Virus record (IMG/VR): IMGVR_UViG_3300002519_000056
Coordinates: 1 to 22,285 of that record
Reading direction: 5' to 3' (one strand)
DNA from: a virus
DNA length: 22,285 nucleotides
A model generated the notes under the pieces. That model saw nothing but the letters and a program-made list of their open reading frames with translations, searched no databases and was not told the origin of the DNA. Below are positions 452 to 18,053 of this stretch, in pieces (the stretch's first letter is position 1; each line of letters starts with the position of its first letter). A program made the position numbers and the translations under genes.

Positions 452-1339
452 ATGAAGTTAACAGAAATAGCATTAAAAGCACTAATCCTTGAAGCATTGG
501 AAGATGAAGAAGAATCTTTTTCCATAGATCAAGAAGAGATCGACAACCTCATAAATGTTGCTGAAAGCGCTCCTGAAATGGCTCTCGATCTCTACCAATC
601 TCTGATTGACGATTTGTCAGAGGAACAACAAAATCAGATAAAATATGTTTTGGCGAACGCCCTTTATAAAGGAGGATCCCCGCGGGGAGCATTAGAAGTT
701 TTATTTCCCGAGGAACAATTATACGAACCACTTGATATTATTAATTGGGACATGGACAGCGTTCAGGTTTATCCTTCCCGTCCTCTTTTCACTGATGACA
801 TGATGAAAGAACTCCAAAAAGCAGAAATTCCTGTCGGCAATGAAGATATCGGATATACTGGGCGATTGACTGTCGGAGAGGTTGTAAACTTTAGACAAGA
901 GATTCTAAGCATGGCAACGCAAACATTTGGTATGGATTTTGGTGTCCCAAATCGATGGGAGCTATACATACATGAGGATACCTTAGGGGTACGAAATGGT
1001 AGCATTTCCCGAAGGAGATTTGTGGGAGATAAAGACTATCCCGCAGTGGACATCTGGTTTAGTTTTTATAAGGGAAAAGAATCTTCCTGGGTTCTGCAAG
1101 AGTTTAAATTGCAAATAAAGAACTTAGCGCCTGAATACAGCAGAGAGAAACTAAGTCTAACGATAGTGTCTGGGCTCCAAGAAGATTTATGGGGAACCCG
1201 ATCAGAGAAGCACCCTGCGTGGACAGAAGGCAAGTCCCGATACATCCTCTTGCAACCCGAACATGCAGGAAGAGATGGTTATGTAACCTCACAAGAAATC
1301 CCTCCTCTTGTCGAAAGTGTCTTCGGAGTTGAAGTTTAA
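452..1339 (+). CDS. Unknown 295-residue protein with a variant of the shared N-terminal peptide
   Basis: It starts with MKLTEIALKALILEALEDEEE, a divergent member of the N-terminal peptide family (M-K-L-T, Leu at 8, L-I-x-E-A at 11-15). Residues about 25-90 are acidic and helical and look TPR-like (alternating short helices around APEMALDLYQSL and IKYVLANALYKGG). The rest is a mixed alpha/beta domain with many aromatic residues that I do not recognise. The start is supported by a GAGG about ten bases upstream. It is the last gene before the promoter at 1353. If the peptide is a capsid-targeting propeptide, I-L-E-A at residues 12-15 is the expected cleavage site; that is inference. Confidence 0.8.
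   Translation: MKLTEIALKALILEALEDEEESFSIDQEEIDNLINVAESAPEMALDLYQSLIDDLSEEQQNQIKYVLANALYKGGSPRGALEVLFPEEQLYEPLDIINWDMDSVQVYPSRPLFTDDMMKELQKAEIPVGNEDIGYTGRLTVGEVVNFRQEILSMATQTFGMDFGVPNRWELYIHEDTLGVRNGSISRRRFVGDKDYPAVDIWFSFYKGKESSWVLQEFKLQIKNLAPEYSREKLSLTIVSGLQEDLWGTRSEKHPAWTEGKSRYILLQPEHAGRDGYVTSQEIPPLVESVFGVEV
678..687. repeat. CCCCGCGGGG palindrome, copy 1
   Basis: A perfect 10-base all-GC palindrome (12 bases with the flanking T and A) inside the 452-1339 gene, in an AT-rich sequence. The same 10-mer recurs at 6386-6395 in another gene, read in a different frame. No function is known. Confidence 0.5.
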
Positions 1340-1352
1340 TTTTAGAAAACAC

Positions 1353-1382
1353 TTGACAAATCGTCTCAACATGTTATATTAT
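1353..1382 (+). promoter_or_regulatory. Sigma70-like promoter for the primase gene
   Basis: A perfect -35 box TTGACA (1353-1358) is followed by TATTAT (1377-1382, 18-base spacer) or the overlapping TATATT (1375-1380, 16-base spacer). It lies between the stop at 1339 and the ATG at 1398. The -35 context ACTTGACAA is the same as at 2452, upstream of the recombination nuclease, which supports a real host-polymerase promoter for early or middle genes. Confidence 0.65.
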
Positions 1383-1397
1383 ACATGAGAGGACAAC

Positions 1398-2333
1398 ATG
1401 AATGATAAACGAAAGATAATAACCGACATCCTCGGTTCATATCGTCGTTCTGGCGATGAATACCTATATTCGTGCCCGTATTGCAAACACCACAAGAAGA
1501 AGATGTCGGTCAACTTTTCGATTAACTCTTTTAAATGTTGGGTGTGTGATGCACGAGGAAAGAATATTTACCGACTTGTAAGAAAGTTTGGGGATTACCA
1601 ACAAAGACAAAAGTATCTTGAATTGCAAGGTCGTTTAGACCTCACAGAGTTCGAAGATATCTTTAAAGAACTAGGTGATATTGAAATAAAACAAAAAATT
1701 GAATTACCACAAGAGTTTATTTCTTTGTGCAACAAACATCTGCCATTGCGTTCTCAGGCTCCGCTGGACTATCTTAGGAAAAGAGGAATAAGTAAATCTG
1801 AGATTTTAAAATGGAAAATAGGATATTGTAAGGAAGGACACTATGCAGGAAGAATTATCATCCCATCTATTGACAACGACGGAGATTGTAATTATTTTAT
1901 TGCTCGTTCATATGTGGGGCATAATCGTAGGTATCTTAATCCACCCTGTGGTCGCGACATTGTTTTTAATGAACTGATGATTGATTGGGATGAGCCCGTG
2001 ATTATTGTTGAGGGTATTTTTGATGCCATCGTTGTTGGCGACAATGTTATTCCCATTCTTGGCTCGACCCTTAGAGAAGACTCAAAACTATTTCAGGCTT
2101 TGGCGATTCATGATACACCGGTATATGTTGCCCTAGATTCAGATGCAGAAAAGAAAGCACATTGGATTATCAGATCCATGATGAAATACGACCTTGAGGT
2201 TAAAAAAATAAACCTTGAGTATTATGAAGATGTTGGTTCTATGACACGATCAGTGTTTTTAGAAAAATTAAATATGGCGGAAGAGATTGATAACGATATG
2301 TATTTCCTCGAAAAACAATTAAAAAATATTTAA
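1398..2333 (+). CDS. DnaG-type DNA primase (T4 gp61-like)
   Basis: A 311-residue primase that would make RNA primers for lagging-strand synthesis. A zinc-binding module is visible: C26-x2-C29 (CPYC) and C47-x2-C50 (CWVC). The TOPRIM catalytic fold follows: VIIVEGIFDAI with its glutamate near residue 205, then LDSDAEKKA with the D-x-D pair near residue 247. The protein is about half the length of bacterial DnaG and has no helicase-binding C-terminal domain, as is usual for T4-like phages. The start at 1398 has GAGAGGA just upstream, and a sigma70-like promoter lies 16-45 bases before it. The tRNA begins two bases after the stop, so both are probably on one transcript. Confidence 0.88.
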   Translation: MNDKRKIITDILGSYRRSGDEYLYSCPYCKHHKKKMSVNFSINSFKCWVCDARGKNIYRLVRKFGDYQQRQKYLELQGRLDLTEFEDIFKELGDIEIKQKIELPQEFISLCNKHLPLRSQAPLDYLRKRGISKSEILKWKIGYCKEGHYAGRIIIPSIDNDGDCNYFIARSYVGHNRRYLNPPCGRDIVFNELMIDWDEPVIIVEGIFDAIVVGDNVIPILGSTLREDSKLFQALAIHDTPVYVALDSDAEKKAHWIIRSMMKYDLEVKKINLEYYEDVGSMTRSVFLEKLNMAEEIDNDMYFLEKQLKNI

Positions 2334-2334
2334 G

Positions 2335-2418: not shown

Positions 2419-2453
2419 CTTCGAAGAAAAAATGGAAACACTAAGTTTTATAC

Positions 2454-2487: not shown

Positions 2488-2509
2488 AAGAAAGTAATAC
2501 GGAGGACAA

Positions 2510-5500
2510 ATGACTACTTTTGCACACATTTCAGACACACATATTCGTAACGTGAAATATCATGATGAATACAAGAAAGTTTTTAAAGATATATATGAGA
2601 GCCTTGAGAATGATAAGCCAGATTATATTATCCATACCGGAGATATAGCTCATACAAAGACACAACTCTCTCCGGAATACTTTGAGTTGTGCGCTGATTT
2701 TCTTAAAAATCTTGCGGATATCGCCCCAACATTCATTATTTTAGGAAATCATGATGGTAATCTTAAGAATGGTAATAGGCAGGATGCAATATCACCGATT
2801 ATTGAAGCATTACAACATCCCAATTTAAATTTATTAAAAAATTCTGGAGAGACCCAGTTGGACAATTCTATCTGCCTTAATGTCCTCTCTGTGTTTGATA
2901 GAGACAACTGGGTCTCTCCTTCTGATAAATCTAGGGTAAATATTGCGCTTTATCATGGTGCTATTATGGGATGTGAAATTAATGAAGAGTGGAGTCTTGA
3001 TAATGGTGAGGACGATGTTGATATATTCCGTGATTTCGATTTTGCTATGCTTGGTGATATTCATAAGACGCAAAAGTTAGATGTAGATGGTCGAGTCTGG
3101 TATGCGGGTTCCACTGTTCAGCAGAATTTTGGAGAGTCTCTTAGAAAAGGTTACCTCTTGTGGGACATCCGAGATAAAGAAAATTTCAATGTTGAAAAAA
3201 GATTATTTATGTCTCCTCGACCATTTTATACGGTGGAAATCAATCAAAATGGTACTTTACCAAAAGTTAAAGTGCCAAAAAATTCCCGTCTTCGTCTGGT
3301 TTCAAATTATAACTTGCCTTTAATAAAACTACGAAGGGCATGTGATTATGCTAATGCTAAGTGGAGTCCTTATTCAATTAACCTTGTTAATCGAGCAGGA
3401 TACTCCAATTCGTCTATTGTACATCAAGATGGTAAAGCGATTAACATGCGTGATCAAAATACTCAAGAAAAATATATCAAAGCGTTCTTATCTGATAAAG
3501 AAATAACCGATGATATTTTGGAAAGAATTTTAGAACTCAACCGCGAATATTCTAGACAAATTAAAAATACCGATGATGTTTCTAGAAATATTGTTTGGAA
3601 ACTTAAGAAAATGAAATGGAGCAATCTATTTAACTACGGCGAAAGTAATGAAATTGATTTTGACAAGTTAAATGGTCTTGTTGGAATTTTCGGCAAAAAT
3701 TATTCAGGCAAGTCAAGTATCATCGATGCCGCTTTATTTGGGCTGTTTAACACTACGTCAAAAGGAGAGAGAAAAAATGTCCATATCGTCAATCAAAATC
3801 GCGAAAAGGCTAAGTGTCAACTCGAGATCGGAGTCGGTGATGATACCTACAAGATCACGAGGAACCTCGAAACATATCAGAAAAAATTAAAAGGCAAAGA
3901 AACCAAAGAGGTAAAGACAGAGTTGGACTTTACCAAATATGCTTTGGGTATTCATCCCGAAAGTAAAAACGGCATGACTCGCAATGCAACAGACGAAATT
4001 ATTCGCAAAACATTTGGGAACTATAATGACTTTATGATCACTTCTATGGCTTCCCAGATGGATGCGTTTGGTTTTATTAATGAAGGCTCAACAAAGCGCA
4101 AAGAAATTCTTGCGAAGTTTCTTGACCTTAAGATGTTTGAGGAAAAACATAAACTTGCGAAGAAAGATTCGGCCGAAAAGAAAGGCGTGATTAAACACTT
4201 AAACTCTGTTGATTGGCGCAAAAAGCTAAAATGGAATCAAGAAGCTCTTTCTGAAATTTTAGAAGACATAGCCAACCAATCTGACCTTTGTGAAAAACAC
4301 GCAGCGAGAACCAAGGATCTTCTAGAAGAACAAAAGATAATAGAAGAACAGCTAAGATCAATTGGGGCTGAACCAGTAGATATTCGCATTCTTCTTGATA
4401 TGCTTGAAGAGAAGCGTGAAGTCCAGCGGGATATCTCTAAAGCGATTGAGAGTGGCGACAGTTATGTAAAGGGCTTGGTGGCCTTAAAAGAGCGTTTAAA
4501 AGGCTTTATCGATAATTTTAATCTCGATGAGTACACCGGCCAACAAGAGCAGCATAAATCCTTGACCGATCTTGGTCGTAGATTAAAAATAAGACAGAGG
4601 GATTTAGCCTCAAAGATTGCCAATTACCAAGCGAAGATTGATTTGCTTCATGATCACGAATACGATCCTAATTGTGAATTCTGCTGTGATAACCAGTTCG
4701 TAAAAGAAGCGCACAAAGCAAAGAAAGAAATCATAAAGTCTCAAGAGAAACTTGAAGAGGTTAATGATGAGATTTTTCTAAATAACGAACTCCTTGGCAA
4801 GATTGACATAAAGTCCGTAAAGAATGCAATCGAGGACTATAAAAATAAATTAACAAAGAGCAAGACAAATGAAGCAAAGATACAAAAAATACGCGCTCAA
4901 AATGAGGCACACGAGAGCAAGAAGGCTCTCACGGGAAAGGAGATCGAAGAAACCCTTGCGAAGATTGAGCACTATTATAAAAACCAAGAAGCATATGATA
5001 ATCTGGAATCCTTACAAAGAGACCTTCGGGCAATCAAATTAACGGTGAGTAAGAAGCAAGAAGAGCTTGAAAAGTGTAACAAGAAGATTATGATTCTCAT
5101 GTCTGAGGAGGGTTCCACCCGGCGCTTAATTGAAGAAGCAAAAGAACATATTAAACAAATTGATGACGCTGAAAAAGAATTTATCGCTTATGATTTATAT
5201 ATTCAAGCTATGCATGCCAATGGCGTATCTTATCAGGTCATTAAATCAATGCTCCCTATTATTAACAAAGAGATATCTTCTGTGCTTAATACTATTGTGG
5301 ACTTTGAAGTTTTCTTTGATAATGTTGATAATAAATTAGAAATATATATTAAACATCCGAAGTATGATCCTAGACCATTGTCGATGGGATCTGGTGCGGA
5401 GAAGACAATTGCATCAATGGCTATCCGCCTTGCTTTGATTTCAGTAACCAATTTACCAAAATCGGAACTATTTATTCTTGACGAACCAGCAACAGCATTG

Positions 5501-5659
5501 GATCAAGATCATATGGAAGGCTTTATTCGTCTTCTTCAAATGATTAAAAGCCAATTTAAAACGGTTCTCTTAATTTCCCATCTCGAATCTTTAAAGGATA
5601 TTGTCGACAAGACAATCGACATTCAAAAAGCAGATGGCTTTGCAAAGGTAAAAATCTAA
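2510..5659 (+). CDS. Fused SbcD-SbcC (gp47-gp46) recombination nuclease/ATPase
   Basis: One uninterrupted 1049-residue frame carries both subunits of the Mre11-Rad50 type complex that resects DNA ends for recombination-dependent replication. Residues 1 to about 340 are the SbcD/gp47 phosphoesterase: D9-x-H11, GD near 45, GNHD at 79-82, LYHGA near 149 and GDIH near 186. From about 366 comes the SbcC/gp46 ATPase: Walker A G395-K-N-Y-S-G-K401-S, a charged coiled coil, a zinc hook C722-E-F-C725 with a second Cys at 726, the returning coil, signature LSMGSGAEKT near 957, Walker B LFILDEP with D991-E992, D-loop ALD, and H-loop ISH. In T4 and most bacteria these are two genes. The start at 2510 has GGAGGACAA just upstream. 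The stop overlaps the next ATG by one base. Confidence 0.93.
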   Translation: MTTFAHISDTHIRNVKYHDEYKKVFKDIYESLENDKPDYIIHTGDIAHTKTQLSPEYFELCADFLKNLADIAPTFIILGNHDGNLKNGNRQDAISPIIEALQHPNLNLLKNSGETQLDNSICLNVLSVFDRDNWVSPSDKSRVNIALYHGAIMGCEINEEWSLDNGEDDVDIFRDFDFAMLGDIHKTQKLDVDGRVWYAGSTVQQNFGESLRKGYLLWDIRDKENFNVEKRLFMSPRPFYTVEINQNGTLPKVKVPKNSRLRLVSNYNLPLIKLRRACDYANAKWSPYSINLVNRAGYSNSSIVHQDGKAINMRDQNTQEKYIKAFLSDKEITDDILERILELNREYSRQIKNTDDVSRNIVWKLKKMKWSNLFNYGESNEIDFDKLNGLVGIFGKNYSGKSSIIDAALFGLFNTTSKGERKNVHIVNQNREKAKCQLEIGVGDDTYKITRNLETYQKKLKGKETKEVKTELDFTKYALGIHPESKNGMTRNATDEIIRKTFGNYNDFMITSMASQMDAFGFINEGSTKRKEILAKFLDLKMFEEKHKLAKKDSAEKKGVIKHLNSVDWRKKLKWNQEALSEILEDIANQSDLCEKHAARTKDLLEEQKIIEEQLRSIGAEPVDIRILLDMLEEKREVQRDISKAIESGDSYVKGLVALKERLKGFIDNFNLDEYTGQQEQHKSLTDLGRRLKIRQRDLASKIANYQAKIDLLHDHEYDPNCEFCCDNQFVKEAHKAKKEIIKSQEKLEEVNDEIFLNNELLGKIDIKSVKNAIEDYKNKLTKSKTNEAKIQKIRAQNEAHESKKALTGKEIEETLAKIEHYYKNQEAYDNLESLQRDLRAIKLTVSKKQEELEKCNKKIMILMSEEGSTRRLIEEAKEHIKQIDDAEKEFIAYDLYIQAMHANGVSYQVIKSMLPIINKEISSVLNTIVDFEVFFDNVDNKLEIYIKHPKYDPRPLSMGSGAEKTIASMAIRLALISVTNLPKSELFILDEPATALDQDHMEGFIRLLQMIKSQFKTVLLISHLESLKDIVDKTIDIQKADGFAKVKI
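2846..2919. repeat. Perfect 15-bp inverted repeat inside the nuclease coding region
   Basis: The left arm GGAGAGACCCAGTTG (2846-2860) and right arm CAACTGGGTCTCTCC (2905-2919) are exact reverse complements separated by 44 bases. The pair lies wholly within codons of the SbcD domain (about residues 113-137) and could fold into a stable mRNA or DNA hairpin. Confidence 0.85.
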
Positions 5660-5910
5660 TGAAATTAACAAAAGAACAACTGAAGCAAATCATTAAGGAA
5701 GAACTTGAATCTCTTGAAGAGCTATCAATGGGGCCCGTTGCTGGATCTGTCGGTGGTCATACCGAGCCCACGCCGAGAAAAACTGCGCACGAGACAGCGC
5801 TCGAAGAAAAAGAAAAACTTCATCAAAAGGTAGTGTCGGGTAAGGATCTTACGCCGAGAGAAAGGAAAAAGTATTTTTGGCTAATCCGAAAACTAGAAGG
5901 AGAATTGTAA
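5659..5910 (+). CDS. Small protein with the canonical shared N-terminal peptide
   Basis: An 83-residue protein starting MKLTKEQLKQIIKEELE, the clearest copy of the shared peptide. The rest is a Gly/Pro/Thr linker (about 28-45) and a strongly charged helical tail rich in Lys and Glu that I do not recognise. The ATG at 5659 overlaps the stop of the fused nuclease by one base (TAATG), which suggests translational coupling. Candidate protease junctions in the T4 gp21 style (I/L-x-E) are I-K-E at 12-14 and L-E-E at 19-21. Small size, charge and tag suggest an internal head or core protein, by inference. Confidence 0.8.
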   Translation: MKLTKEQLKQIIKEELESLEELSMGPVAGSVGGHTEPTPRKTAHETALEEKEKLHQKVVSGKDLTPRERKKYFWLIRKLEGEL

Positions 5911-6152: not shown

Positions 6153-6155
6153 ATT

Positions 6156-6677
6156 GTGAAACTTACTAAGCAGCAGCTTAAACAAGTTATTCAAGAAGAG
6201 ATAGAGAAAGCAACTCTTTTAGAAGCCCTGACTCCTCTAGGAGGACTATCTGCTTTTCAAATTCAACAAGAATTGAGAGCAGTTAGTTCAGATATGTGGG
6301 CCTACTGGGGACATGAACAATTGTCCGCTGCTTTAGAGATTGTTAAGCAAGAGCGCGATGAACTCCAAAGAGAATATAAACAAGGCCCCGCGGGGGTGTA
6401 TACACCCGATTGGTTTGATCAATATGTGCATCCCCTGAATAGTTTAATCAGTCAAATTGAAGATGCGAGGATAGATGCGCCGGACAGTCCGGAGAATTTG
6501 TATGAATTGACTGATGATGATAAATTTTATTATGACGACGAGATCGAAATGATAAAGCATGAACGAGCTGCGGGAACAGAGCGATCAGATATAATTGATA
6601 TTCTGGAGGAATACTTTGACGTAGAAGAAAAGGTACTCGGCCCTCTTGTAGATTATGTAATTGAAGAGTGGGGATAA
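6156..6677 (+). CDS. Acidic 173-residue protein with the shared N-terminal peptide
   Basis: The start codon is GTG at 6156; this is the start that gives the full peptide MKLTKQQLKQVIQEEIEKA. The remainder is acidic and mostly helical (LSAALEIVKQERDELQREY near 60-78) with a long Asp/Glu-rich C-terminal half. I do not recognise a family. L-L-E-A at about residues 21-24 would suit a gp21-type protease (L-x-E then A). It begins three bases after the holin-like gene and overlaps the following gene by one base. Confidence 0.78.
   Translation: MKLTKQQLKQVIQEEIEKATLLEALTPLGGLSAFQIQQELRAVSSDMWAYWGHEQLSAALEIVKQERDELQREYKQGPAGVYTPDWFDQYVHPLNSLISQIEDARIDAPDSPENLYELTDDDKFYYDDEIEMIKHERAAGTERSDIIDILEEYFDVEEKVLGPLVDYVIEEWG
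6386..6407. repeat. Two overlapping GC-rich palindromes
   Basis: CCCCGCGGGG (6386-6395, second copy of the 10-mer at 678) overlaps by two bases with the perfect 14-base palindrome GGGTGTATACACCC (6394-6407). Both are within the coding sequence of the 6156 gene. Confidence 0.5.
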
Positions 6678-7078: not shown

Positions 7079-7741
7079 ATGAGGCTTACAAAACAAAAAC
7101 TATATAAATTAATCAAAGAAGCAATGTATGAAAATGAACAAGGTGCTTTAGGACAAGTTCAAGCCATGGTTGATGGAAATCAGTGGCTTAAAGGCACACA
7201 AGTTAATGAAGGAGACTTAATACCAATTAGCGACAAAGTCCTTCTGTATGCTAGTGAAGAAGGAATGAGCCATATTAAAGATCGTCATCAAGACGCTAAC
7301 GCTCCCGGATCTTTAATTTATCCAAATGTTAATGTTAAAGAATTGATTTTAGCCATAATGAATACACAACCAACTTCAACAGGCGGAGGCATGGTTAAGT
7401 GGGAAGGCATCAGTTCTCCTTCCGGTCCAGTTGGCAAAATGGGGCTGGCTGCTGGGACTCCACAAGAAGTTGCTGGTTTGCAAGATTATAAAATGCCCGG
7501 AGGCCGAGGAGAGGTTGTAAAAGTTGCCCCCGGTGAAAGGAAAGAAACAGATGAAGTCACATTAGTAACTTCCAATATTGGTTCTCTTGAAGACGGTAGA
7601 ACTGTTTTGAGTCTTGTTACTTTGTACCCGGGCGGCATGGACGTCGACGGTGTTCAAGTACCATTTGATAGAGGTGCATTTGCCGCTGCAGGTATCTATT
7701 TCGTTCTACCTCCAGGATCGCCTATTTTAAAGGGCGCGTAA
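7079..7741 (+). CDS. Tagged protein with a possible BECR-type nuclease domain
   Basis: A 220-residue protein starting MRLTKQKLYKLIKEAM, a clear copy of the shared peptide ending I-K-E-A (12-15). Its globular part contains G-M-S-H65-I-K-D-R69-H70, then a Gly/Pro-rich middle and two beta-rich segments (TDEVTLVTSNIG and TVLSLVTLYPGG). An H-I-x-x-R-H signature followed by strands with V-x-L-x-T is what I associate with the barnase-EndoU-colicin-RelE (BECR) nucleases found in phage polyvalent proteins. I offer that only as a possibility. The ATG directly follows the previous stop, and the gene overlaps the next by one base. Confidence 0.75.
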   Translation: MRLTKQKLYKLIKEAMYENEQGALGQVQAMVDGNQWLKGTQVNEGDLIPISDKVLLYASEEGMSHIKDRHQDANAPGSLIYPNVNVKELILAIMNTQPTSTGGGMVKWEGISSPSGPVGKMGLAAGTPQEVAGLQDYKMPGGRGEVVKVAPGERKETDEVTLVTSNIGSLEDGRTVLSLVTLYPGGMDVDGVQVPFDRGAFAAAGIYFVLPPGSPILKGA

Positions 7742-8202
7742 TGAAACTCACAAAACAAAAGCTCTCCAAACTTATTACCGAGGCTCTCGAGCAGGAAGAA
7801 AGGGATAATTTACTTGCGATGTTTCAATCAGGAGACGAAAACTATATTAATCAAGCGATTGAACTCTTGGACATGATGGAAGAAAAACCAACACCTGAAA
7901 TGGCCGAGGCTCTATTGAAAACCCCAGGCAACGAAAAACTCAATCGACTTGGTTTGGATTTGTTTATGCAAGCGACAAAGATGCCACAACCTTTAAGATT
8001 TTCTCAAATGGGTGAATGGATACAGCTTGACTATCCTCTGGATGTTGCAGATGAGATTGTAGGTTTTCTGAAAGAGAGACGGTGGAAAGAAGGCAGAGGC
8101 TTCCAGACTGATGATTTCTGGTATATGTCTTATGATCGTAAAATGATTATTTTGATTCCAATACGACAAGCGCCTTCTGATGATTCAGACGGTGGGCTTT
8201 AG
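7741..8202 (+). CDS. Unknown 153-residue protein with the shared N-terminal peptide
   Basis: It starts MKLTKQKLSKLITEALEQEE; I-T-E-A (12-15) is an exact fit to an I-x-E/A protease junction. The following region is helical and acidic with repeat-like segments (ENYINQAIELLDMMEEKPTP, then MAEALLKTPGN). The C-terminal half is a compact alpha/beta domain ending in a hydrophobic strand (MIILIPI) and an Asp-rich tail. I do not recognise a family. Its ATG overlaps the previous stop by one base (TAATG). Confidence 0.76.
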   Translation: MKLTKQKLSKLITEALEQEERDNLLAMFQSGDENYINQAIELLDMMEEKPTPEMAEALLKTPGNEKLNRLGLDLFMQATKMPQPLRFSQMGEWIQLDYPLDVADEIVGFLKERRWKEGRGFQTDDFWYMSYDRKMIILIPIRQAPSDDSDGGL

Positions 8203-8211: not shown

Positions 8212-8622
8212 ATGCTACTATTCTTGCTTTCTACAGCGTTAGCCGACCCGATGCTCATCCACCTTCGAGAAGGGGACGTAGCGCCCTTTGGCGGCCGTCT
8301 AATGAACGATGAGGCGGTGGCCAACATTATTGCTGGGAATGAATTGACCCTTGAGCAATGCGAGATCAAAACCGAGTTGAAAGTTTCTATTGTAAAAGCG
8401 GAAATGCAACTTGAAATAGACTATTTAAAAGCAGAGTTGGAAACAGAACAAGCAAAGAACGCAACTCTATTGGAACTTCGAGATACCGAAATTGAGGCTC
8501 TGAGAACACAACTTAAACCAAACAAAACCATGTGGGCTTTCTTCGGCGGCTTTTTGCTAGCGTCAGGAACTTCGCTGGGAACTTATTATTCTGTGAGAGA
8601 AATCAATGAAAATAAGAATTAA
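8212..8622 (+). CDS. Exported or membrane protein with coiled coil and C-terminal anchor
   Basis: The 136-residue protein opens with a very short hydrophobic segment, MLLFLLSTALADP, that looks like a signal peptide cleaved after A-L-A. Next comes LREGDVAPFGGRLMNDEA, a pattern (APF-x-G-x-L) I have seen in phage proteins of the lysis/envelope region. A Glu/Lys coiled coil (about 50-100) and one transmembrane segment (MWAFFGGFLLASGTSLGTYY, about 104-123) follow. Leader plus C-terminal anchor resembles a unimolecular spanin, but the lipobox cysteine is missing; the only Cys is near residue 50. An AGGAG lies eight bases before the ATG. It overlaps the next gene by 17 bases. Confidence 0.72.
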   Translation: MLLFLLSTALADPMLIHLREGDVAPFGGRLMNDEAVANIIAGNELTLEQCEIKTELKVSIVKAEMQLEIDYLKAELETEQAKNATLLELRDTEIEALRTQLKPNKTMWAFFGGFLLASGTSLGTYYSVREINENKN

Positions 8623-9040
8623 AAAAACAATAAAAAAAGTTTTGGATGTGATATGCCCCCCGGCAACGCAGAATCTTGAATTAAATACTAGGAATAGAAA
8701 TGCTGCTATTAAAGCTGACTATATACAATATGGTCCTCTAAATCTTGCTGATAAAAAATATTGGAATAGATTGGCAAAGTTTTGGAAAACCGAACCGGAG
8801 GTAGCCAAACAATCTCGATGTGGTAATTGCGCTGCTTTTGACCTGTCGCCACGAATGAAAGAGTGTATACCCGGAAAAACATCTGATAAAGAAGGTGAAT
8901 TGGGATATTGCTGGATGCATAATTTTAAATGCCACAGCGTCAGAGTTTGTTACACTTGGGCTGCTGGTGGGCCTATTCCTGAAGATACGATCTCTCATGA
9001 ATGGCAGACAAAAAATAAAGAGTCAATGGATGAAAAGTAA
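8606..9040 (+). CDS. Cysteine-rich protein, probable metal or Fe-S binder
   Basis: A 144-residue protein with a very basic N-terminus (MKIRIKKTIKKV) and a cysteine cluster in its second half: C72-x2-C75 (RCGNC), C87, C102 in GYCWMH, C109 in FKC, and C115, followed by Y-T-W-x3-GGPI. Six cysteines plus H105 and H110 suggest bound zinc or an iron-sulfur cluster. Similar C-x2-C ... GYC ... C ... W-x3-GGPI proteins occur, to my recollection, in marine T4-like phages without a known function. The start overlaps the preceding gene by 17 bases and its end overlaps the next by 11. Confidence 0.78.
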   Translation: MKIRIKKTIKKVLDVICPPATQNLELNTRNRNAAIKADYIQYGPLNLADKKYWNRLAKFWKTEPEVAKQSRCGNCAAFDLSPRMKECIPGKTSDKEGELGYCWMHNFKCHSVRVCYTWAAGGPIPEDTISHEWQTKNKESMDEK

Positions 9041-9407: not shown

Positions 9408-10024
9408 AATTAACAAAAGAACAGCTTAAATGTCTTATTAAAGAAGAACTCGAAAGCGTAGTGCAAGAGGCTACCACCACCGGGCAAGAAGATAAAATTA
9501 TGAAAGCAGCAGTGGAAATGAAAGATAATCCAAATTTGGATAAAATCTTTTTAGCTCTTTCAAGAGATCCCAAGGTGAAAAAAATAGTGGCACAAACCGA
9601 TATTCAAGTACAAAAAAATGAGGAAGATGTGGACGCACTCAATGTACCGTTAGCCGTCTCTTCTATTCTAGTCGCTGGATATCCATCGATGACGGCGTTT
9701 TTAGCCTCAGCCGCTGGTAAAGTATTGTTAGCAAAAACAGCAGTAGTTATGGGCACATCGCTTGCAACTTTAGGAACGGCCGCTATTGGATTTCTTGCTC
9801 CTGTTGCAGTCGCTTTTCTATTGGATGTAGCCGTGGGAGGCATAGTGGATGCCGGTGAGGCGAAAGAGAAAAAGAAAGCAGCGGCAAAACTGAAAAAACA
9901 GCAACAGGCACATACAAAGGCCTTGAGAGCATCAGGGTGGAAGCCAGAGCACGATGCCCCCGGGAAAGCCACCCCAGGACACAGCGCTAGGATACAGAAA
10001 AGCCTGGCCAGAGACAGAAGATAA
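9404..10024 (+). CDS. Tagged protein with Ala-rich hydrophobic segments and basic tail
   Basis: The start is ATG 9404 (ATGA overlap with the previous stop), which makes MKLTKEQLKCLIKEELE the exact N-terminus; an in-frame ATG at 9377 would bury the peptide. Of 206 residues, about 20-75 are charged and about 80-145 form long hydrophobic Ala/Gly/Val-rich stretches (for example PLAVSSILVAGYPSM and AAIGFLAPVAVAFLLDVAVG) able to span or insert into a membrane. The last 60 residues are Lys/Ala-rich then strongly basic. V-Q-E-A near residue 23 is a possible cleavage site. A soluble tag followed by a membrane-active segment would suit an ejection protein, which is inference. Confidence 0.8.
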   Translation: MKLTKEQLKCLIKEELESVVQEATTTGQEDKIMKAAVEMKDNPNLDKIFLALSRDPKVKKIVAQTDIQVQKNEEDVDALNVPLAVSSILVAGYPSMTAFLASAAGKVLLAKTAVVMGTSLATLGTAAIGFLAPVAVAFLLDVAVGGIVDAGEAKEKKKAAAKLKKQQQAHTKALRASGWKPEHDAPGKATPGHSARIQKSLARDRR

Positions 10025-10036: not shown

Positions 10037-10591
10037 ATGAGCTCAAATACACTAGAAATTATTCGAGGGCTAGCTCAAGCAGCCGCAAATGGCTATGATG
10101 GATCACATGACGAAAGATATTCATATGATGGAACTTCACGTAAAGTGGGGCTGAATAGAGAAGAGGGCAACCTGATTACAGACAAACGAGTTAATGATGG
10201 TTTTTCTGTAAAATTCTATGGGGATTCGCTTCGTATTACATACCAGAGCGATGTGCTTCTTAAAAATGTAAAAGATCCAAAATTCGAACAAGAACAAGAA
10301 CGCATGATTAATCAAGTTAAAAAGTTTCTTCAAAAAGAGTATAAGGCAATTACCGGAAATTCTATCACTCTTACAAAAAAAGGTGACGTAGAGTGCCTGG
10401 TTCAGTCTACTTCTCACGTTCGAACTTTTGTACAAGCCCACCAACATTATAAAATTTCTAAAGTTGATTCCGAACCACATCTAGAGCCATCCGTTGATGC
10501 GACCCGAGATGTTACAAGAAAATTCTTAGCACAACATTCCACAAAGCGTCCCAAAAACGTTACTTATAAAAAAGGAGCGAATGACAAATGA
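10037..10591 (+). CDS. Conserved-looking protein of unknown function upstream of terminase
   Basis: A 184-residue protein without the shared peptide: MSSNTLEIIRGLAQAAANGYDG, then a beta-rich segment (DGFSVKFYGDSLRITYQSD) and a charged helix (EQEQERMINQVKKFLQKEY). I recall similar proteins near the terminase in marine T4-like phages, but no function is known to me. An AAGGAA lies about twelve bases before the ATG. Position suggests a virion or head-assembly role. The last four bases overlap the start of the 31-residue ORF at 10588. Confidence 0.78.
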   Translation: MSSNTLEIIRGLAQAAANGYDGSHDERYSYDGTSRKVGLNREEGNLITDKRVNDGFSVKFYGDSLRITYQSDVLLKNVKDPKFEQEQERMINQVKKFLQKEYKAITGNSITLTKKGDVECLVQSTSHVRTFVQAHQHYKISKVDSEPHLEPSVDATRDVTRKFLAQHSTKRPKNVTYKKGANDK

Positions 10592-10683
10592 AACTTACAA
10601 AAGAACAGCTCAAAAGAATAGTAAAAGAAGAATTGGAAAATGTTATGAAGGGAACAAAGCCCACCCCTAAAAAGAAAAAATAA
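10588..10683 (+). CDS. 31-residue micro-protein consisting almost only of the shared peptide
   Basis: ATG 10588 overlaps the previous stop (ATGA) and reads MKLTKEQLKRIVKEELENV, then MKGTKPTPKKKK and a TAA at 10681. The first 19 residues are the shared peptide; the remaining 12 are a short Pro/Lys-rich basic tail. Coding is supported by near-identity of the peptide to the other copies, the coupled start, and a good GGAG upstream (AAAGGAGCGA). It may be a free form of the docking peptide, a DNA-binding mini-protein, or a degenerate tagged gene that lost its cargo. Confidence 0.7.
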   Translation: MKLTKEQLKRIVKEELENVMKGTKPTPKKKK

Positions 10684-10692: not shown

Positions 10693-12276
10693 ATGGCCTT
10701 TAAACTCTCCAAACAAGAAATTGTAAAAGAGATTGTGAAATGCGGTAAGGATCCACAATTCTTTATCGATAACTATTGTAGAATTTCACATCCTCTGCGG
10801 GGCTTGATTCCGTTTAAAACCTACAATTATCAAAAAGATCTTTTAAAAGACTTTAATGATTATCGTTTCAATATTATACTTAAAGCCAGACAATTGGGTA
10901 TCTCCACAATCTCAGCGGGATACATTGTCTGGTTTATGCTTTTTCATAGAGACAAGAACATTCTTGTAATTGCCACTAAGTTTGGAACAGCAGCTAACTT
11001 GGTGAGAAAAGTAAAATCAATTATGAAGCATTTACCCGAATGGATTAAAATTTCAAAGATCGTAACGGATAATAAAACTTCATTCGAATTATCAAACGGG
11101 TCACAGATCAAAGCAGGAACGACTTCTGGAGATGCCGGTAGATCGGAAGCCTTATCACTGCTCGTTATAGACGAGGCAGCACACGTAGAAGGCCTTGAAG
11201 AGTTGTGGACGGGTCTTTACCCTACTTTGTCAACAGGAGGCCGCTGCATAGCCTTATCGACCCCTAAAGGGGTAGGTAATTGGTTCCACAAGACTTACAT
11301 TGATGCAGAGTCAGAAGAGAACGATTTTCATCCAATTGTTTTACCTTGGGATATGCATCCTGAAAGAGATCAGGATTGGTTTGCAAAAGAAACCAAAAAT
11401 ATGTCTCGAAGACAGATCGCCCAGGAATTAGAATGTAATTTCAATACTTCAGGCGAAACTGTTATCCACCCGGACGATATGCAGTGGTTATTTGAAAATG
11501 TTAAAGACCCCCACTATAAAACTGGATATGACAGAAATTTATGGATATGGGAAAAATATCAAGAAGGTCTTCCATATCTTTTGGTAGCCGATGTTGCTCG
11601 TGGCGATGGTACAGATTATTCTGTTTTTCATGTAATAAGACTAGACACAATGGCAGTTGTTGCTGAATATCAAGGAAAACCAAACCTTGATCTTTATTCA
11701 AATATTCTTTATGATGCAGGCAGAGAATACGGCAACTGTTTGTTGGTTGTCGAAAATAATGGGATTGGCATTTCTATATTAGAAAAATTAATTACTTTGG
11801 AATATCCAAAATTATATTATTCAATTAAGTCAACCCACGAATATGTTGAGGCTTATTTGGCAGAGGATAATGATAGATCTGTACCAGGGTTTACAACTTC
11901 CACTAAAACAAGGCCTTTAATTGTAGCAAAACTAGAGGAGTACATTAGAAATAAACTAATTACTGTACATTCTAATCGTTTGTTTCATGAAATGAAAACT
12001 TTTATATGGTACAATGGGAAGCCTCAAGCAATGCGTTCTTATAATGATGATCTAGTTATATCTTTAGCAATTGCCTGCTGGGTAAGAGATACTGCATTAT
12101 CAGAGAACCAAAGAGATATGGAATACAAAAAAGCAATGCTTAATGGCTTAATGAAGACAACCACAACTATGAATACACAAATAAAAGGACAAGAAGGTTA
12201 TAAACAAACTTTTCATGAAAAACATGAAGAAGAAATAAACAAAACAAAAGAATTTTTTTGGATTTATAAAGGATAA
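10693..12276 (+). CDS. Terminase large subunit (T4 gp17-like)
   Basis: This 527-residue packaging motor and nuclease loads DNA into the prohead through the portal. The ATPase half shows a non-canonical Walker A, KARQLGIST (64-72): the lysine of the usual GKT/S is replaced by Ile and K64 at the start of the loop probably serves instead, as in several phage terminases. Walker B is LLVID160-E161, and a coupling segment (LSTPKG) is near 189. The RNase H-like nuclease half has VAD300 with ARGDGTDYS, VVE354 and the NDD near 452. Length is close to other T4-like large terminases. No small terminase was recognised nearby. The portal gene starts three bases after the stop. Confidence 0.94.
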   Translation: MAFKLSKQEIVKEIVKCGKDPQFFIDNYCRISHPLRGLIPFKTYNYQKDLLKDFNDYRFNIILKARQLGISTISAGYIVWFMLFHRDKNILVIATKFGTAANLVRKVKSIMKHLPEWIKISKIVTDNKTSFELSNGSQIKAGTTSGDAGRSEALSLLVIDEAAHVEGLEELWTGLYPTLSTGGRCIALSTPKGVGNWFHKTYIDAESEENDFHPIVLPWDMHPERDQDWFAKETKNMSRRQIAQELECNFNTSGETVIHPDDMQWLFENVKDPHYKTGYDRNLWIWEKYQEGLPYLLVADVARGDGTDYSVFHVIRLDTMAVVAEYQGKPNLDLYSNILYDAGREYGNCLLVVENNGIGISILEKLITLEYPKLYYSIKSTHEYVEAYLAEDNDRSVPGFTTSTKTRPLIVAKLEEYIRNKLITVHSNRLFHEMKTFIWYNGKPQAMRSYNDDLVISLAIACWVRDTALSENQRDMEYKKAMLNGLMKTTTTMNTQIKGQEGYKQTFHEKHEEEINKTKEFFWIYKG

Positions 12277-12279: not shown

Positions 12280-14193
12280 ATGGCTCGTAATGATAGAAAC
12301 CCAAATAATAACCAATCTGACCTGTTTAAGTCTTTAACAAGGCTTTTTTCCGGACCACTTACCCAGAGAAGAACACAATCGGGTCGGCAATTAAGAAGAA
12401 GACATTTAGATATCTACGCTAAAAGGTTTAAATCAGCTAGCGGAAAGCAGTTCAAAAAGTCTGAATACAACCCCATGAATGTAACTTCGCTCAATATGAT
12501 TTCAAATAGAAATCGTGCAGAGCGATATATTGATTTTGATCAGATGGAGTATACGCCGGAAATTGCATCTTCATTAGATATCTATGCAGATGAAATGACA
12601 ACTCATTCAAGTTTAACTCCAATGTTGCATATTAAATGCCCCAATGACGAAATTAAATATATATTACATTCTCTTTATTATAATGTTATGAACATTGAGC
12701 ATAATCTTTTTGGTTGGGCTAGAACAATGTGTAAATATGGAGATTTGTTTGTATATCTAGACATTGACGAAGGATTGGGGATTAGAAACTGTATTGGTCT
12801 TCCTGCTCAAGAAATTGAACGCTTAGAAGGAGAAGACCCATCAAATCCCAATTATATTCAGTATCAATGGAACAATGGTGGTTTAACGCTCGAGAATTGG
12901 CAAATAGCACATTTTAGAGTTTTAGGTAATGATAAGCATGCTCCATATGGTACCAGCGCTCTAGAGCCAGCCAGACGCATTTGGAGGCAACTTAATCTTT
13001 TGGAAGATGCCATGATGGCTTATCGGATTACTCGTTCGCCCGAGCGCCGTGTCTTCAAGATCGATGTCGGTGGAATTGCGCCGCAAGATGTTGAGCAATA
13101 TATGCAAAAAATAATGACTCAAATGAAGCGGCATCAAGTGGTTGATCCGTCATCTGGTCGCGTTGATTTACGTTATAACCCTCTTTCTATTGAAGAAGAT
13201 TATTTTATCCCAATTCGAGGAGGGGCTTCGGCAACGGACATCACCAACCTTGCCGGAGGAACTTTCACAGGCCAAATTGATGATGTAAAGTATCTTCGAG
13301 ATAAATTGTTTTCTGCTCTTAAAGTACCCCAATCTTATCTTACAATGGGGGAAGGTGCAACAGAAGACAAAACCACATTAGCCCAAAAAGATATTCGTTT
13401 TGCAAGAACTATTCAGCGACTTCAAAGAGTTATTATATCTGAACTCGAAAAGATTGGTATTATCCATCTTTATACTATGGGTTATCGCGGAGATGATTTG
13501 CTTGGCTTCAAGCTTTCTCTCAATAACCCTAGTAAAATTGCGGAGATGCAAGAGCTTGAGCATTGGAAAACTAAATTTGACATTGCGGCAGCTGCTACGG
13601 ATGGTTATTTCTCGCGACGTTGGGTTGCAGAAAATCTTCTAGGACTTTCTGAGGATGAATTTATTCGAATGCAAAGAGAAATGTATTCGGACGCCAAATT
13701 TATGGCTGCAGTTGAACAAGCCGGAGAACTTCCCGAGGCAGGAGGCGGACCCGGCGGAGACCTAGGTCTTGGTGGCGAAGGAGAATTAGATTTAGGCGGA
13801 GAAGAATTAGATTTAGGCGGAGAAGAACCAGCCGAGGAAGAAGAAGAAGTTTTATTAGCTGAACCGCCGGCAAAGCGTGATGACACCGTGTTCAGGCGAC
13901 CAGAGGCGAAAGGAAAACCTCGAGGCCCCTATAAAAAAGATTCTACTAAAATACACAGAAAAGGCGGGAGAAGAAAGCAGATGATTAATGCTGCCTTCTC
14001 GGAACCACTTACTTTTCGTAAAACTTTTCCAGGGTATACTGGCGCTGACGGCCTCGCTTCTCTTTCTCGTGGAGTGACGGAAGCACAAAACCCTGATATT
14101 TTAGAAGAACATAGACTATTTAGTACTGATTTTGAAATTAAATCATTGATAGAATCACTGCGGAAGGATGAAGAAAATGAAATTAACGAATAA
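12280..14193 (+). CDS. Portal protein (T4 gp20-like) with a C-terminal extension
   Basis: A 637-residue protein that should form the twelve-fold portal ring of the head. The core contains typical gp20 segments: RAERYIDFDQMEYTPEIASS near 84-103, CKYGDLFVYLDI near 148, SPERRVFKIDVGG near 253, and the FSALKVPQSYLTMGEG stretch near 344. Residues from about 486 are an addition: a Gly/Glu/Asp low-complexity linker with two perfect copies of ELDLGGE, a basic patch (KGKPRGPYKKDSTKIHRKGG) and a final helical tail. T4 gp20 is 524 residues, so the extra length sits at the C-terminus. The gene end overlaps the next tagged gene by 17 bases. Confidence 0.93.
   Translation: MARNDRNPNNNQSDLFKSLTRLFSGPLTQRRTQSGRQLRRRHLDIYAKRFKSASGKQFKKSEYNPMNVTSLNMISNRNRAERYIDFDQMEYTPEIASSLDIYADEMTTHSSLTPMLHIKCPNDEIKYILHSLYYNVMNIEHNLFGWARTMCKYGDLFVYLDIDEGLGIRNCIGLPAQEIERLEGEDPSNPNYIQYQWNNGGLTLENWQIAHFRVLGNDKHAPYGTSALEPARRIWRQLNLLEDAMMAYRITRSPERRVFKIDVGGIAPQDVEQYMQKIMTQMKRHQVVDPSSGRVDLRYNPLSIEEDYFIPIRGGASATDITNLAGGTFTGQIDDVKYLRDKLFSALKVPQSYLTMGEGATEDKTTLAQKDIRFARTIQRLQRVIISELEKIGIIHLYTMGYRGDDLLGFKLSLNNPSKIAEMQELEHWKTKFDIAAAATDGYFSRRWVAENLLGLSEDEFIRMQREMYSDAKFMAAVEQAGELPEAGGGPGGDLGLGGEGELDLGGEELDLGGEEPAEEEEEVLLAEPPAKRDDTVFRRPEAKGKPRGPYKKDSTKIHRKGGRRKQMINAAFSEPLTFRKTFPGYTGADGLASLSRGVTEAQNPDILEEHRLFSTDFEIKSLIESLRKDEENEINE
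13783..13824 (+). repeat. Perfect 21-base tandem duplication in the portal gene
   Basis: GAATTAGATTTAGGCGGAGA plus a final A occurs twice back to back (13783-13803 and 13804-13824). It encodes E-L-D-L-G-G-E twice in the acidic linker of the portal C-terminal extension. Identity at every base points to recent replication slippage. Confidence 0.85.
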
Positions 14194-14608
14194 ACAGTTA
14201 AAACAAATTATCAAGGAAGAAATGCAAGGCGTCCTTAATGAAGACGGGGGACAGTTGCAAGCCGTATCAGCAACGGTAGAGTATCCAGATATGGTGGACG
14301 AATGTAGATGTTTGTCAATTGAGATTACATTAAACACCGGAAACACAATTGATATTGAGTGTACGGGAATGATTGATGATCTGGATATAATGGATCTTTT
14401 GCAAGGAGACTATTCCGGATATGATTTAAAACTTGAGGGCATCTTCGGGAAAGACGATGGCGGCAAAATGCGCCAAGTCAAGGTTCCTCCTGGAACCACG
14501 GTTGGAATAAGCGAAGAACTTTCAAAAGAAATTGCCGAAGAAGTTGAGGATATGGATGACGCTTTCGAAGCCCCAGATGAAGGCGGCCGTGGCTATTACG
14601 ATTATTAA
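14177..14608 (+). CDS. Very acidic tagged protein between portal and protease
   Basis: I choose ATG 14177 rather than the in-frame ATG at 14168, because it places MKLTNKQLKQIIKEEMQ exactly at the N-terminus. The 143-residue protein overlaps the portal gene by 17 bases. After the peptide and an L-N-E-D-G-G junction (20-25), it has beta-strand segments with two Cys (CRCLSIEITLNTGNTIDIEC) and a highly acidic C-terminal third ending D-Y-Y-D-Y-like. In T4 the gap between gp20 and gp21 holds gp67 and gp68, small acidic prohead-core proteins; position and composition make a core role plausible, but sequence homology is not visible. Confidence 0.78.
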   Translation: MKLTNKQLKQIIKEEMQGVLNEDGGQLQAVSATVEYPDMVDECRCLSIEITLNTGNTIDIECTGMIDDLDIMDLLQGDYSGYDLKLEGIFGKDDGGKMRQVKVPPGTTVGISEELSKEIAEEVEDMDDAFEAPDEGGRGYYDY

Positions 14609-14628
14609 AAAATGAAAAGGAAAGAAGC

Positions 14629-16012: not shown

Positions 16013-16056
16013 TGAAGCCCCTGAAGAGTTCAAAAAATGGTTTAAGATGAGGTAAT

Positions 16057-16432: not shown

Positions 16433-16437
16433 ATCGC

Positions 16438-16465
16438 GCCGGTAGCGCCGGCAAGTCTTTTATTT
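16438..16465 (+). terminator. Weak candidate intrinsic terminator
   Basis: GCCGG (16438-16442) can pair with CCGGC (16448-16452) around a five-base loop, followed by AAGTCTTTTATTT. The stem is short and the T-tract interrupted. It lies in the 90-base gap between the membrane gene and the tagged gene before the protease; this gap otherwise holds only the 19-codon ORF and a six-bp hairpin CCGTTG/CAGCGG. Confidence 0.3.
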
Positions 16466-16476
16466 GAGGAAAGAAA

Positions 16477-16704
16477 ATGAAAATTACAAAAAGAAAATTA
16501 ATTCAACTTATTAAAGAAGAACTTGGTAAAACTTTGAAAGAAAGTTATACCGTTGATGAAATTTATGATTATTCCTGCGATGAATTAATCGAAGATGGAG
16601 AATGGCTCAAAGCCGAAATCCAAAATGATCGTTCCACCGATCCGGGTATGAAGATGATGATTATAGACACGATTAACAATAGATTGGACGCATGTAAAGG
16701 ATAA
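16477..16704 (+). CDS. Small tagged protein immediately upstream of the prohead protease
   Basis: A 75-residue protein starting MKITKRKLIQLIKEELGKTLKES, a good copy of the shared peptide with L-K-E-S (20-23) as a possible protease junction. The remaining 50 residues are acidic and helical with two Cys. TTGAGGAAAG precedes the ATG. It ends one base before the protease ATG. Size and position match those of T4 gp67/gp68 (small prohead-core proteins encoded before gp21), though no direct sequence similarity is visible. Confidence 0.8.
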   Translation: MKITKRKLIQLIKEELGKTLKESYTVDEIYDYSCDELIEDGEWLKAEIQNDRSTDPGMKMMIIDTINNRLDACKG

Positions 16705-16705
16705 A

Positions 16706-17314
16706 ATGAAAAAGAAACTATTACGAGAATTTTATGCCTTATGTGAAGGCGGTGTTTGCCAAGATCTTCTGTCCGAGAAAGAAAGAAGAGAAGTGCAAAA
16801 TGGCGTTCTTTATTTGTCGGGAAAGCTTCAGACCGCCGATAAACAAAATGGGAATGGTCGTGTTTACCCCTATGAAGTTCTTAAAAGAGAAATGGATAAT
16901 TATATGAAGATTGTTAAAGACAGTCGTGCGTGTGGAGAATTAGATCACCCGGATGATTCTGTTGTTAATCTTAAAAATGTTTCTCACATTGCAACTGATA
17001 TTTGGTGGGAAGGTAAAAATGTGATGGGTAAACTCAAAGTTCTCGATACTCCTTCTGGCCGGATTCTTAAAGATCTTATTAATGCCGGAGTTAAACTTGG
17101 TATTTCGTCTAGAGGCTTGGGGTCTGTTAAAGAAAGCGCTGGACAAACTGTTGTTGAGAATGATTTTCAATTGATTTGCTTTGATATAGTATCGGAGCCT
17201 TCGACTCCAGACGCATATGTTTATCCAAGTGGCCAAAGTTCCATGACGACTCGCCTTCGTGAGGTTAAAGAGAATAGTATCAATGATTTATTTAAAAAGA
17301 TTTTGGGGGATTAA
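16706..17314 (+). CDS. Prohead maturation protease (T4 gp21-like)
   Basis: A 202-residue serine protease that would cleave scaffold, core and capsid proteins inside the prohead before packaging. The expected catalytic blocks are visible: CGELDH81-P with the histidine, GISS134-S135-RGLGS with the nucleophile serine, and the downstream DFQLICFDIVSEPSTPDAYV strand typical of the family. The N-terminal NGNGRVYP is also characteristic. Length is close to T4 gp21 (212 residues). It lies directly between two tagged genes (16477 and 17317). T4 gp21 cuts after (L/I)-x-E, and I-x-E is present in nearly every shared N-terminal peptide of this window. Confidence 0.94.
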   Translation: MKKKLLREFYALCEGGVCQDLLSEKERREVQNGVLYLSGKLQTADKQNGNGRVYPYEVLKREMDNYMKIVKDSRACGELDHPDDSVVNLKNVSHIATDIWWEGKNVMGKLKVLDTPSGRILKDLINAGVKLGISSRGLGSVKESAGQTVVENDFQLICFDIVSEPSTPDAYVYPSGQSSMTTRLREVKENSINDLFKKILGD

Positions 17315-17316
17315 TT

Positions 17317-17619
17317 GTGAAGATCAGTAAAAAAAGATTAACTCAAATTATAAAGGAAGAATTAAAAGAAAATTTTTATCCAGAGGAACAGGTTGCATCG
17401 GAACAAGCAAAGGCGCAAGAAGCAATTGATAAATTAAAAGAAGCAACCGAACAACTCAAACTAATCGCCGGCAGTGAAACGACTCATGAGTATTCAGCTG
17501 ATGATGAGTCTAATCTATCTGGGCTTGGTCAAAGTATTTCTATAATAGAAGTCGAGATTGCAAAAATCCAAGGTGCCTTCCAAGCAGAAAGACATTCCTA
17601 CAGTCAATATAAACAATAG
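17317..17619 (+). CDS. Tagged coiled-coil protein immediately downstream of the protease
   Basis: GTG start at 17317, two bases after the protease stop, gives MKISKKRLTQIIKEELKENF, a clear copy of the shared peptide. The 100-residue protein continues as a likely coiled coil rich in Ala, Glu, Gln and Lys (EQAKAQEAIDKLKEATEQL) and ends in a second helix. In T4 the gene after gp21 is gp22, the main scaffold, which is helical and acidic but much longer (269 residues). This may be a small core protein or a reduced scaffold; homology is not shown. Confidence 0.78.
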   Translation: MKISKKRLTQIIKEELKENFYPEEQVASEQAKAQEAIDKLKEATEQLKLIAGSETTHEYSADDESNLSGLGQSISIIEVEIAKIQGAFQAERHSYSQYKQ

Positions 17620-17627
17620 AGGTTCTA

Positions 17628-18053
17628 ATGAAAAAAGAAGAATTAAAAAAAATTTTGAAACCGTTAATTAAAGAGTGCATTAAAGAAGTTATTTTTGAAG
17701 AAGGCACTCTTTCAACTATTATTTCTGAAGTTATAAGAGGAACTTCTACGAAACAAATGGTTTATGAAACAAAACAAAAACCTACACTTGAATCTGATGA
17801 AGAGGCGAAAACACGAAGACAAAAAAAACAAAATCAACTCCAAGAAAATAGAAAAAAAATTCTTGATGCAATCGGAAAAGACACTTACAATGGTGTAAAT
17901 ATTTTTGAAGGAACCACACCTATGTCGGCTCCAAGATCCCCCTCTTCTCCGTATGGATCAAGCGCACTTGACGGCATGGCGCCTAGTGATCCTGGGATTG
18001 ATATTTCCAGTTTTGGGTCACGTAAACATTGGAAAAAATTAGCAGGAAATTAA
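17628..18053 (+). CDS. Head-region protein with a peptide related to the shared tag
   Basis: A 141-residue protein beginning MKKEELKKILKPLIKECIKE, which resembles the shared peptide in a shifted register (L-I-K-E at 13-16) without M-K-L-T. The middle (about 50-85) is a very charged Lys/Gln/Arg helix. The last 50 residues are Pro/Ser/Gly-rich, with a final K-H-W-K-K. No family was recognised. AGAGGTT precedes the ATG. It sits between protease and bS21, a region where a scaffold or capsid-associated protein might be expected. Confidence 0.75.
   Translation: MKKEELKKILKPLIKECIKEVIFEEGTLSTIISEVIRGTSTKQMVYETKQKPTLESDEEAKTRRQKKQNQLQENRKKILDAIGKDTYNGVNIFEGTTPMSAPRSPSSPYGSSALDGMAPSDPGIDISSFGSRKHWKKLAGN

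Follow-up and report, generated by a model that had tools for sequence, protein, structure and literature searches.

A putative capsid targeting sequence on unrelated proteins of uncultured T4-like phages

Why should ten proteins with nothing else in common begin with the same short peptide? This question is raised by IMG/VR virus record IMGVR_UViG_3300002519_000056, positions 1 to 22,285 of which (22,285 bases, hereafter the window) carry a T4-type head module consisting of the large terminase subunit (TerL), the gp20 portal protein and the S77 prohead protease gp21, with gp23 located outside the window. The window comes from an uncultured T4-like virus of bacteria, the closest isolates of which, judged by the portal, are Microcystis phage Mel-JY01 (42%) and Flavobacterium phages immuto (41%). 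Ten of its open reading frames (ORFs) start with the motif M-[KR]-[LI]-[TS]-x3-L-x2-[LIV]-[IV]-x-E-[EA]-[LMI], which we call tag1. We consider it very probable that tag1, new as a sequence class, is a T4-like capsid targeting sequence (CTS), which would load unrelated proteins into the prohead and be cut by gp21, the bodies then being ejected into the host. This reading is based on the N-terminal place of the tag, its L/I-x-E motifs, its company of T4-type heads and gp21, the hundreds of different bodies behind it and its exchange for another tag. The preliminary description of the window had proposed that unrelated cargo shares one address, for which the prohead interior was the first candidate, and the comparative evidence favours that proposal; the connection with the T4 CTS was not made there. 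The tagged genes are as follows, each tag being given with the residues after it.

452-1339, plus strand: tagged protein, 295 aa; tag MKLTEIALKALILE (residues 1-14, positions 452-493), then ALEDEEE; no Pfam or PHROG match.
5659-5910, plus strand: tagged protein, 83 aa; tag MKLTKEQLKQIIKE, then ELESLEE; start overlaps the preceding stop by 1 base.
6156-6677, plus strand: tagged protein, 173 aa, GTG start; tag MKLTKQQLKQVIQE, then EIEKATLLE; weak match to PHROG 22197.
7079-7741, plus strand: tagged protein, 220 aa; tag MRLTKQKLYKLIKE, then AMYENEQ; orthologues elsewhere bear a second tag.
7741-8202, plus strand: tagged protein, 153 aa; tag MKLTKQKLSKLITE, then ALEQEE; start overlaps the preceding stop by 1 base.
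9404-10024, plus strand: tagged protein, 206 aa; tag MKLTKEQLKCLIKE, then ELESVVQE and A; hydrophobic Ala/Gly-rich stretch and basic tail; near-identical orthologue in L364.
10588-10683, plus strand: stand-alone tag peptide, 31 aa; MKLTKEQLKRIVKEELENVMKGTKPTPKKKK; directly upstream of terL.
14177-14608, plus strand: tagged protein, 143 aa; tag MKLTNKQLKQIIKE, then EMQGVLNE and D; between the portal gene and the next head-module gene; alternative in-frame start at 14168.
16477-16704, plus strand: tagged protein, 75 aa; tag MKITKRKLIQLIKE, then ELGKTLKE and S; just upstream of gp21.
17317-17619, plus strand: tagged protein, 100 aa, GTG start; tag MKISKKRLTQIIKE, then ELKENFYP; just downstream of gp21.

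A six-frame scan of every start codon in the window returned exactly these ten motif starts and none on the minus strand, and no match arose in 20,000 rounds of residue shuffling of the window's 23 genes, so that the ten starts of the preliminary description are confirmed. Its view that the peptide is attached to ten different proteins needs one amendment: all ten tags are present, but the 10588 product is a stand-alone tag with a KKKK tail and carries no cargo. Over 16 residues the ten tags have a mean pairwise amino-acid identity of 57%, and the bodies behind them are, as had been claimed, unrelated, no two falling into one BLAST family and the best body-body E-value being 0.38. Identical residues in the tags are encoded by the same codon in 51% of cases versus 44% expected from codon usage; codon sharing is thus near the expectation, indicating, in agreement with the earlier view, that selection acts on the peptide and not on the DNA. 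Five tagged starts (5659, 7741, 9404, 10588 and 14177) overlap the preceding stop, as had been noted, and the genes at 9404 and 14177 have further in-frame start codons a few codons upstream. The tag1 consensus is MKITKxQLKQIIKE followed by ELExVLxE, the tag extending to about residue 22 in many relatives and conservation fading beyond that residue. The amphipathic helix that had been predicted was not supported by the hydrophobic moment of the consensus, which did not exceed that of shuffles (P=0.37), although an AlphaFold model of the 7079 protein, made from five sequences and with a pLDDT (predicted local distance difference test) of 38, shows a helix of very low confidence at residues 5-16.

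The tag is not confined to the window. A degenerate DNA pattern of tag1 matched at least 120 stretches of the viral collection, the DNA of which yielded 492 distinct tagged proteins among the matches listed. When the start codon was left out of the pattern, 123 matches were found in 2.9 million viral contigs, 122 of which immediately followed a start codon; the remaining one lay a codon further in. The same pattern occurred at only four places in 84,980 prokaryote genomes, namely three in metagenome-assembled contigs (two right after a start codon and one with an unclear start) and one chance internal match; the random hits in all kinds of non-phage proteins that had been named as a refutation therefore did not occur. 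In 34 long contigs there were one to nine tags matching the strict pattern per contig, always on one strand within a contig, while the reversed tag pattern was absent from the same 34 contigs and none of 34 random contigs was tagged. A tblastn search of phage isolates with the 22-residue consensus gave no match, for which low-complexity masking or the short query is the probable cause. In the literature searched (without subscription papers and preprints), the peptide strings retrieved unrelated papers only, and no paper combined 'capsid targeting sequence' and 'metagenom'.

Tagged contigs are also distinguished by the kind of head that they encode. S77 was found in 18 of the 34 long tagged contigs, gp23 in 15 (all of which also have S77) and a T4-type portal in 21; in the three with a portal and without S77, the portal lies at or near the contig end. 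No HK97-type capsid gene was present in the 19 without gp23, and where the head of a tagged contig could be recognised, it was always of the T4 type. The distance to gp21, which the preliminary description had proposed to count, gave a mixed result: tags were located within 25 kb of gp21 in 58 of 83 cases, compared with 34 expected, over all contigs (P=0.001), but proximity was not significant in contigs longer than 100 kb (P=0.11). The untagged head genes of the window, including the candidate tag-removing enzyme, are the following.

10693-12276, plus strand: large terminase subunit, gp17-type, untagged; PHROG 2, E=8e-53.
12280-14193, plus strand: gp20-type portal protein, untagged; PHROG 213, E=4.6e-74.
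16706-17314, plus strand: gp21-type prohead protease (Peptidase_S77), candidate for removal of the tag; Pfam PF03420, E=1.8e-32; PHROG 207.

The catalytic His and Ser motifs of this protease (GELDHP and GISSRG) are conserved, the H81 and S134/S135 columns being invariant in an alignment with T4 gp21, and LLRE and LLSE occur near its own N-terminus. T4 gp21 cleaves after L/I-X-E (PMC9026906), and tag1 carries such a sequence at a nearly fixed place. To avoid circularity, we chose ORFs on residues 1-8 only, excluding any that fitted the search patterns (n=202); Glu14 with a hydrophobic residue ([LIVMF]) at position 12 was found in 194 of these starts (96%), and [LIVMF]xE recurred at residues 20-22 in 60 and at residues 19-21 in 33. 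Among the matches listed, LxE stood at residues 20-22 in 95 of 306 proteins, compared with about 1-3% further along, and LxD, LxQ and LxK stood there in 8, 2 and 2. In tag1, the arrangement hydrophobic-x-x-hydrophobic-hydrophobic-x-E thus occurs twice, at an interval of eight residues. In the tagged contigs, the N-terminal region of gp23 ends in LLRE or LLKE followed by S, A, Q or G (in a few cases LISE or LLDE), where T4 gp23 has FLTE before A.

The likeness to T4 extends to the spacing of residues. Mullaney and Black (1996) reportedly dealt with the CTS of the T4 internal proteins. This sequence is found on the internal proteins IPI, IPII and IPIII and on Alt (reviewed in PMC9026906 and PMC3012670), and in IPIII residues 4 and 7 are important for targeting and residues 8 and 10 for processing (PMC9026906). 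IPIII and IPII both begin with MKTYQEFIAEA, in which the spacing Y4-x-x-F7-I8-x-E10, that is, hydrophobic-x-x-hydrophobic-[ILV]-x-E, equals L8-x-x-I11-I12-x-E14 of tag1. Apart from this spacing and the M-K start, the tag and MKTYQEFIAE differ, and the stretch is too short for homology to be established statistically. In both cases a T4-type phage that encodes an S77 gp21 has one short N-terminal peptide, ending in L/I-x-E, on proteins that are otherwise unrelated; tag1 (MKITKxQLKQIIKE), however, differs in sequence, is longer, often has a second LxE about eight residues on and occurs on hundreds of cargo families across many phages as against a handful in T4. Unlike the T4 CTS, it also coexists and exchanges with a second tag and is found as a stand-alone peptide.

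This second tag, tag2, is M-K-L-[LI]-x-E-N-W-R-x-[YF]-L-x-E, an abundant and likewise N-terminal peptide in which W8-x-x-[FY]11-L12-x-E14 again shows the T4 spacing. Tag1 was also found in 20, and S77 in 13, of 25 long contigs with tag2 (W01 and W02 are isolates). For the 7079 protein, an orthologue in L392 (45% identical) starts with MKIIIENWRRYLKE followed by E, and another, in L407, with MKLLMENWREFLNE followed by T; in the alignment, M1 and E14 are common to all, and the body begins soon after. Altogether 13 cargo families occurred with both tags, at least nine of which, including that of the 7079 protein, were homologous through most of the body, homology beginning just after the tag, as in MKITKSRLQQIIKEEIQAEMKK before NIAYSGVVLDD and MKLLLENWREFLTEQ before NIAYSGIVLDD. 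Tag1 and tag2 are therefore interchangeable on the same cargo, and since the same cargo may bear either, the two most likely share one destination.

The cargo itself is extremely diverse. Among the matches listed, 460 tag1 bodies formed 338 BLAST families, 294 of them singletons, and 230 tag2 bodies formed 112 families. Tagged proteins are mostly small (median about 110 aa), and very few of 134 tagged bodies scanned had a confident Pfam match; Pfam and PHROG scans of the window cargo proteins gave nothing convincing. Domains recognised behind tag1 were GNAT, pentapeptide repeats and type VI secretion system effector-like domains, and those behind tag2 were zeta-toxin or AAA kinases, NUDIX, protein kinase, phosphatase, HAD/NT5C nucleotidase, HNH and NadR-like domains, together with a cytidylyltransferase-like domain from residue 23 and a weak ADP-ribosyltransferase (ART) match. 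T4 Alt is an ADP-ribosyltransferase with a CTS (PMC9026906, PMC7411985), and the internal proteins of T-even phages are a highly diverse set in which only the CTS is conserved (PMC3012670). These enzyme domains suggest host-directed injected factors, although they do not prove ejection.

From these observations we infer the following course, from docking and packaging through cleavage to ejection, and likewise what the cargo does. Tagged proteins would be made with the phage late genes and, by analogy with T4, their tags would dock into the prohead core, probably on gp22. During head maturation, gp21 (S77) would cut after Glu14, E22 or both, as the motif implies, the second LxE at residues 19-22 offering a possible further cut in about half of the tagged proteins. 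The freed bodies would remain with the DNA in the head and be ejected into the host at infection. In T4, IPIII without its CTS still functions in the host cytoplasm (PMC9391042). Two other systems are comparable. In phage P1, the N-terminal 30 residues of DarB, an injected anti-restriction protein, are enough to send a reporter into the capsid (PMC9024508); no shared consensus among the Dar proteins and no T4-style scaffold are reported. In SPN3US and phiKZ, head proteins, many of which are ejected, have propeptides that are cut after a short Glu-ending motif by a gp21-related protease (PMC7411985, PMC5694885), but the motif in SPN3US is A-x-E, the lineage is a different one of giant phages, and the available parts of these sources describe no common short tag.

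Several observations weigh against a CTS. The residue following the cut (P1') is mostly Glu at site 14, in contrast to Ala in T4 IPII, IPIII, gp22 and gp23, and the true cut may therefore lie at E22 or at some other place; a clear second site, in turn, is missing from about half of the tag1 proteins. Tagged genes extend beyond the head module, the isolates Mel-JY01 and immuto have no match to the strict tag1 pattern, each known-domain match comes from one or two proteins (several below Pfam's cut-off), and some homologues of tag2 cargo are untagged. For example, the window ORF at 8606-9040 (MKIRIKK, continuing to CPPATQNLELNTRNR) has no tag while its homologues in other phages bear tag2, so that cargo families can evidently lose or lack the tag.

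Among other explanations, the best surviving, though unlikely, is that the tag docks proteins into the core without later ejection, tagged proteins being structural components of the core or scaffold of the prohead, comparable to T4 gp67, gp68 and gp22, which would be degraded and removed as the head matures. T4 core proteins are also gp21 substrates (PMC9026906), and the small size of many tagged proteins and the retention of a 31-aa stand-alone tag upstream of terL agree with this; hundreds of unrelated and mostly singleton bodies, some with nucleotidase, NUDIX, kinase or GNAT domains, nevertheless suit accessory cargo better than an essential scaffold. Still less probable is a destination unrelated to the head, such as a membrane, the tail or baseplate, or a host complex, to which a short N-terminal helix would bind. 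The very low-confidence helix prediction and the occurrence of tagged genes beyond the head genes in large contigs would fit such a partner, but the near-invariant Glu14 within L/I-x-E and the second, Glu-specific LxE are what gp21 recognises, the hydrophobic moment is unremarkable and no tagged contig has a recognised non-T4 capsid. That the common beginning serves as a translation signal or as a recombination block by which genes are moved, the peptide itself being without function, is scarcely credible in spite of the clustering of tagged genes with overlapping starts, as synonymous codons differ nearly as much as codon usage permits, the same cargo occurs with a second tag of different sequence and matching spacing, and residue 14 is almost always Glu. 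Three simpler origins were rejected: recent duplication of one gene, by the unrelated bodies and diverged codons; a ribosome-binding artefact, by the codon variation; and a random-ORF artefact, by the zero counts for control patterns and random contigs.

The T4 CTS is known from a few proteins of a few enteric phages. The principle is already known; the novelty lies in the two classes of tag and in the fact that one cargo can bear either, in the tandem arrangement of the motif, in peptides made up of the tag alone and in the large scale. Tag1 would work like the T4 CTS, its uptake and removal being predictions from sequence and analogy, and the CTS logic would then operate at a far larger scale in environmental T4-like phages. 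We lean slightly towards a wider picture, in which at least two interchangeable N-terminal codes load several hundred families in many uncultured T4-like phages, the tag predicts injected proteins, the first code is a pair of gp21 sites in tandem, and the peptides of about 30 residues that lie upstream of terL and consist of the tag alone have a part of their own in core assembly. If so, the first 14-22 residues would suffice to list the probably injected proteins of a phage, and hundreds of unannotated families, many of them plausible anti-defence or host-takeover factors, would receive a first functional class. The tags, with their presumed cut sites, may also provide new natural signals by which proteins could be directed into phage heads.

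Peptides consisting of the tag and a basic tail were found immediately before terL in the window and in L035 and L364; in L072 one tagged gene lies in between. Tagged ORFs of similarly small size are present at other places in L052, L112, L119 and L325. Because stand-alone peptides are conserved, they suggest, speculatively, that the tag has a role of its own, perhaps in the core. A conserved family of tagged peptides of 46 aa, with LSDYLSNIYKWCPAGTKCEPEKKKTKWWKGK and with Cys, Trp and Lys-rich tails, was seen in L021 (2571), L043 (1745), L095 (1599) and L107 (1890). In L098 (8605-9129, minus strand), one tagged protein has a further tag-like stretch (MSKAQLTEIIKEELSGYLSNIYKWCPAGT) in its interior, which looks like the outcome of a fusion between two such proteins. 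One cargo family, in L343/L315 and L456, consists of tagged proteins with a PHHMTI motif reminiscent of 2H phosphoesterases and may represent a counter-defence enzyme.

Tag-like N-termini are also found in a cultured phage, Flavobacterium phage immuto (L125, 5396-5866 and 11843-13143; host Flavobacterium sp. LMO8). Its protein QQO92104.1, with a body 55% identical to that of a tag1 protein, starts with MGKVNKAYIENIIKEILSEKKADRC, its nucleotidase QQO92101.1 has MKKVMGNLADLLLEES, and two neighbours upstream of terL share M..NF[DN]L[KR]xFL[TV]ENKLT. Elsewhere in the window, a tRNA-Leu (TAA) gene at 2335-2419 has a primase on one side and a gp46/47-like ORF on the other. The latter, of 1049 aa (2510-5659), appears by eye to be a fusion, its N-terminal half resembling the SbcD/gp47 nuclease and the rest SbcC/gp46. 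From 18304 to the window end at 22285, where relatives have gp22 and gp23 after gp21, there are repetitive fibre-like ORFs with DITLDAAGDIILDADGADVLFKDGG repeats.

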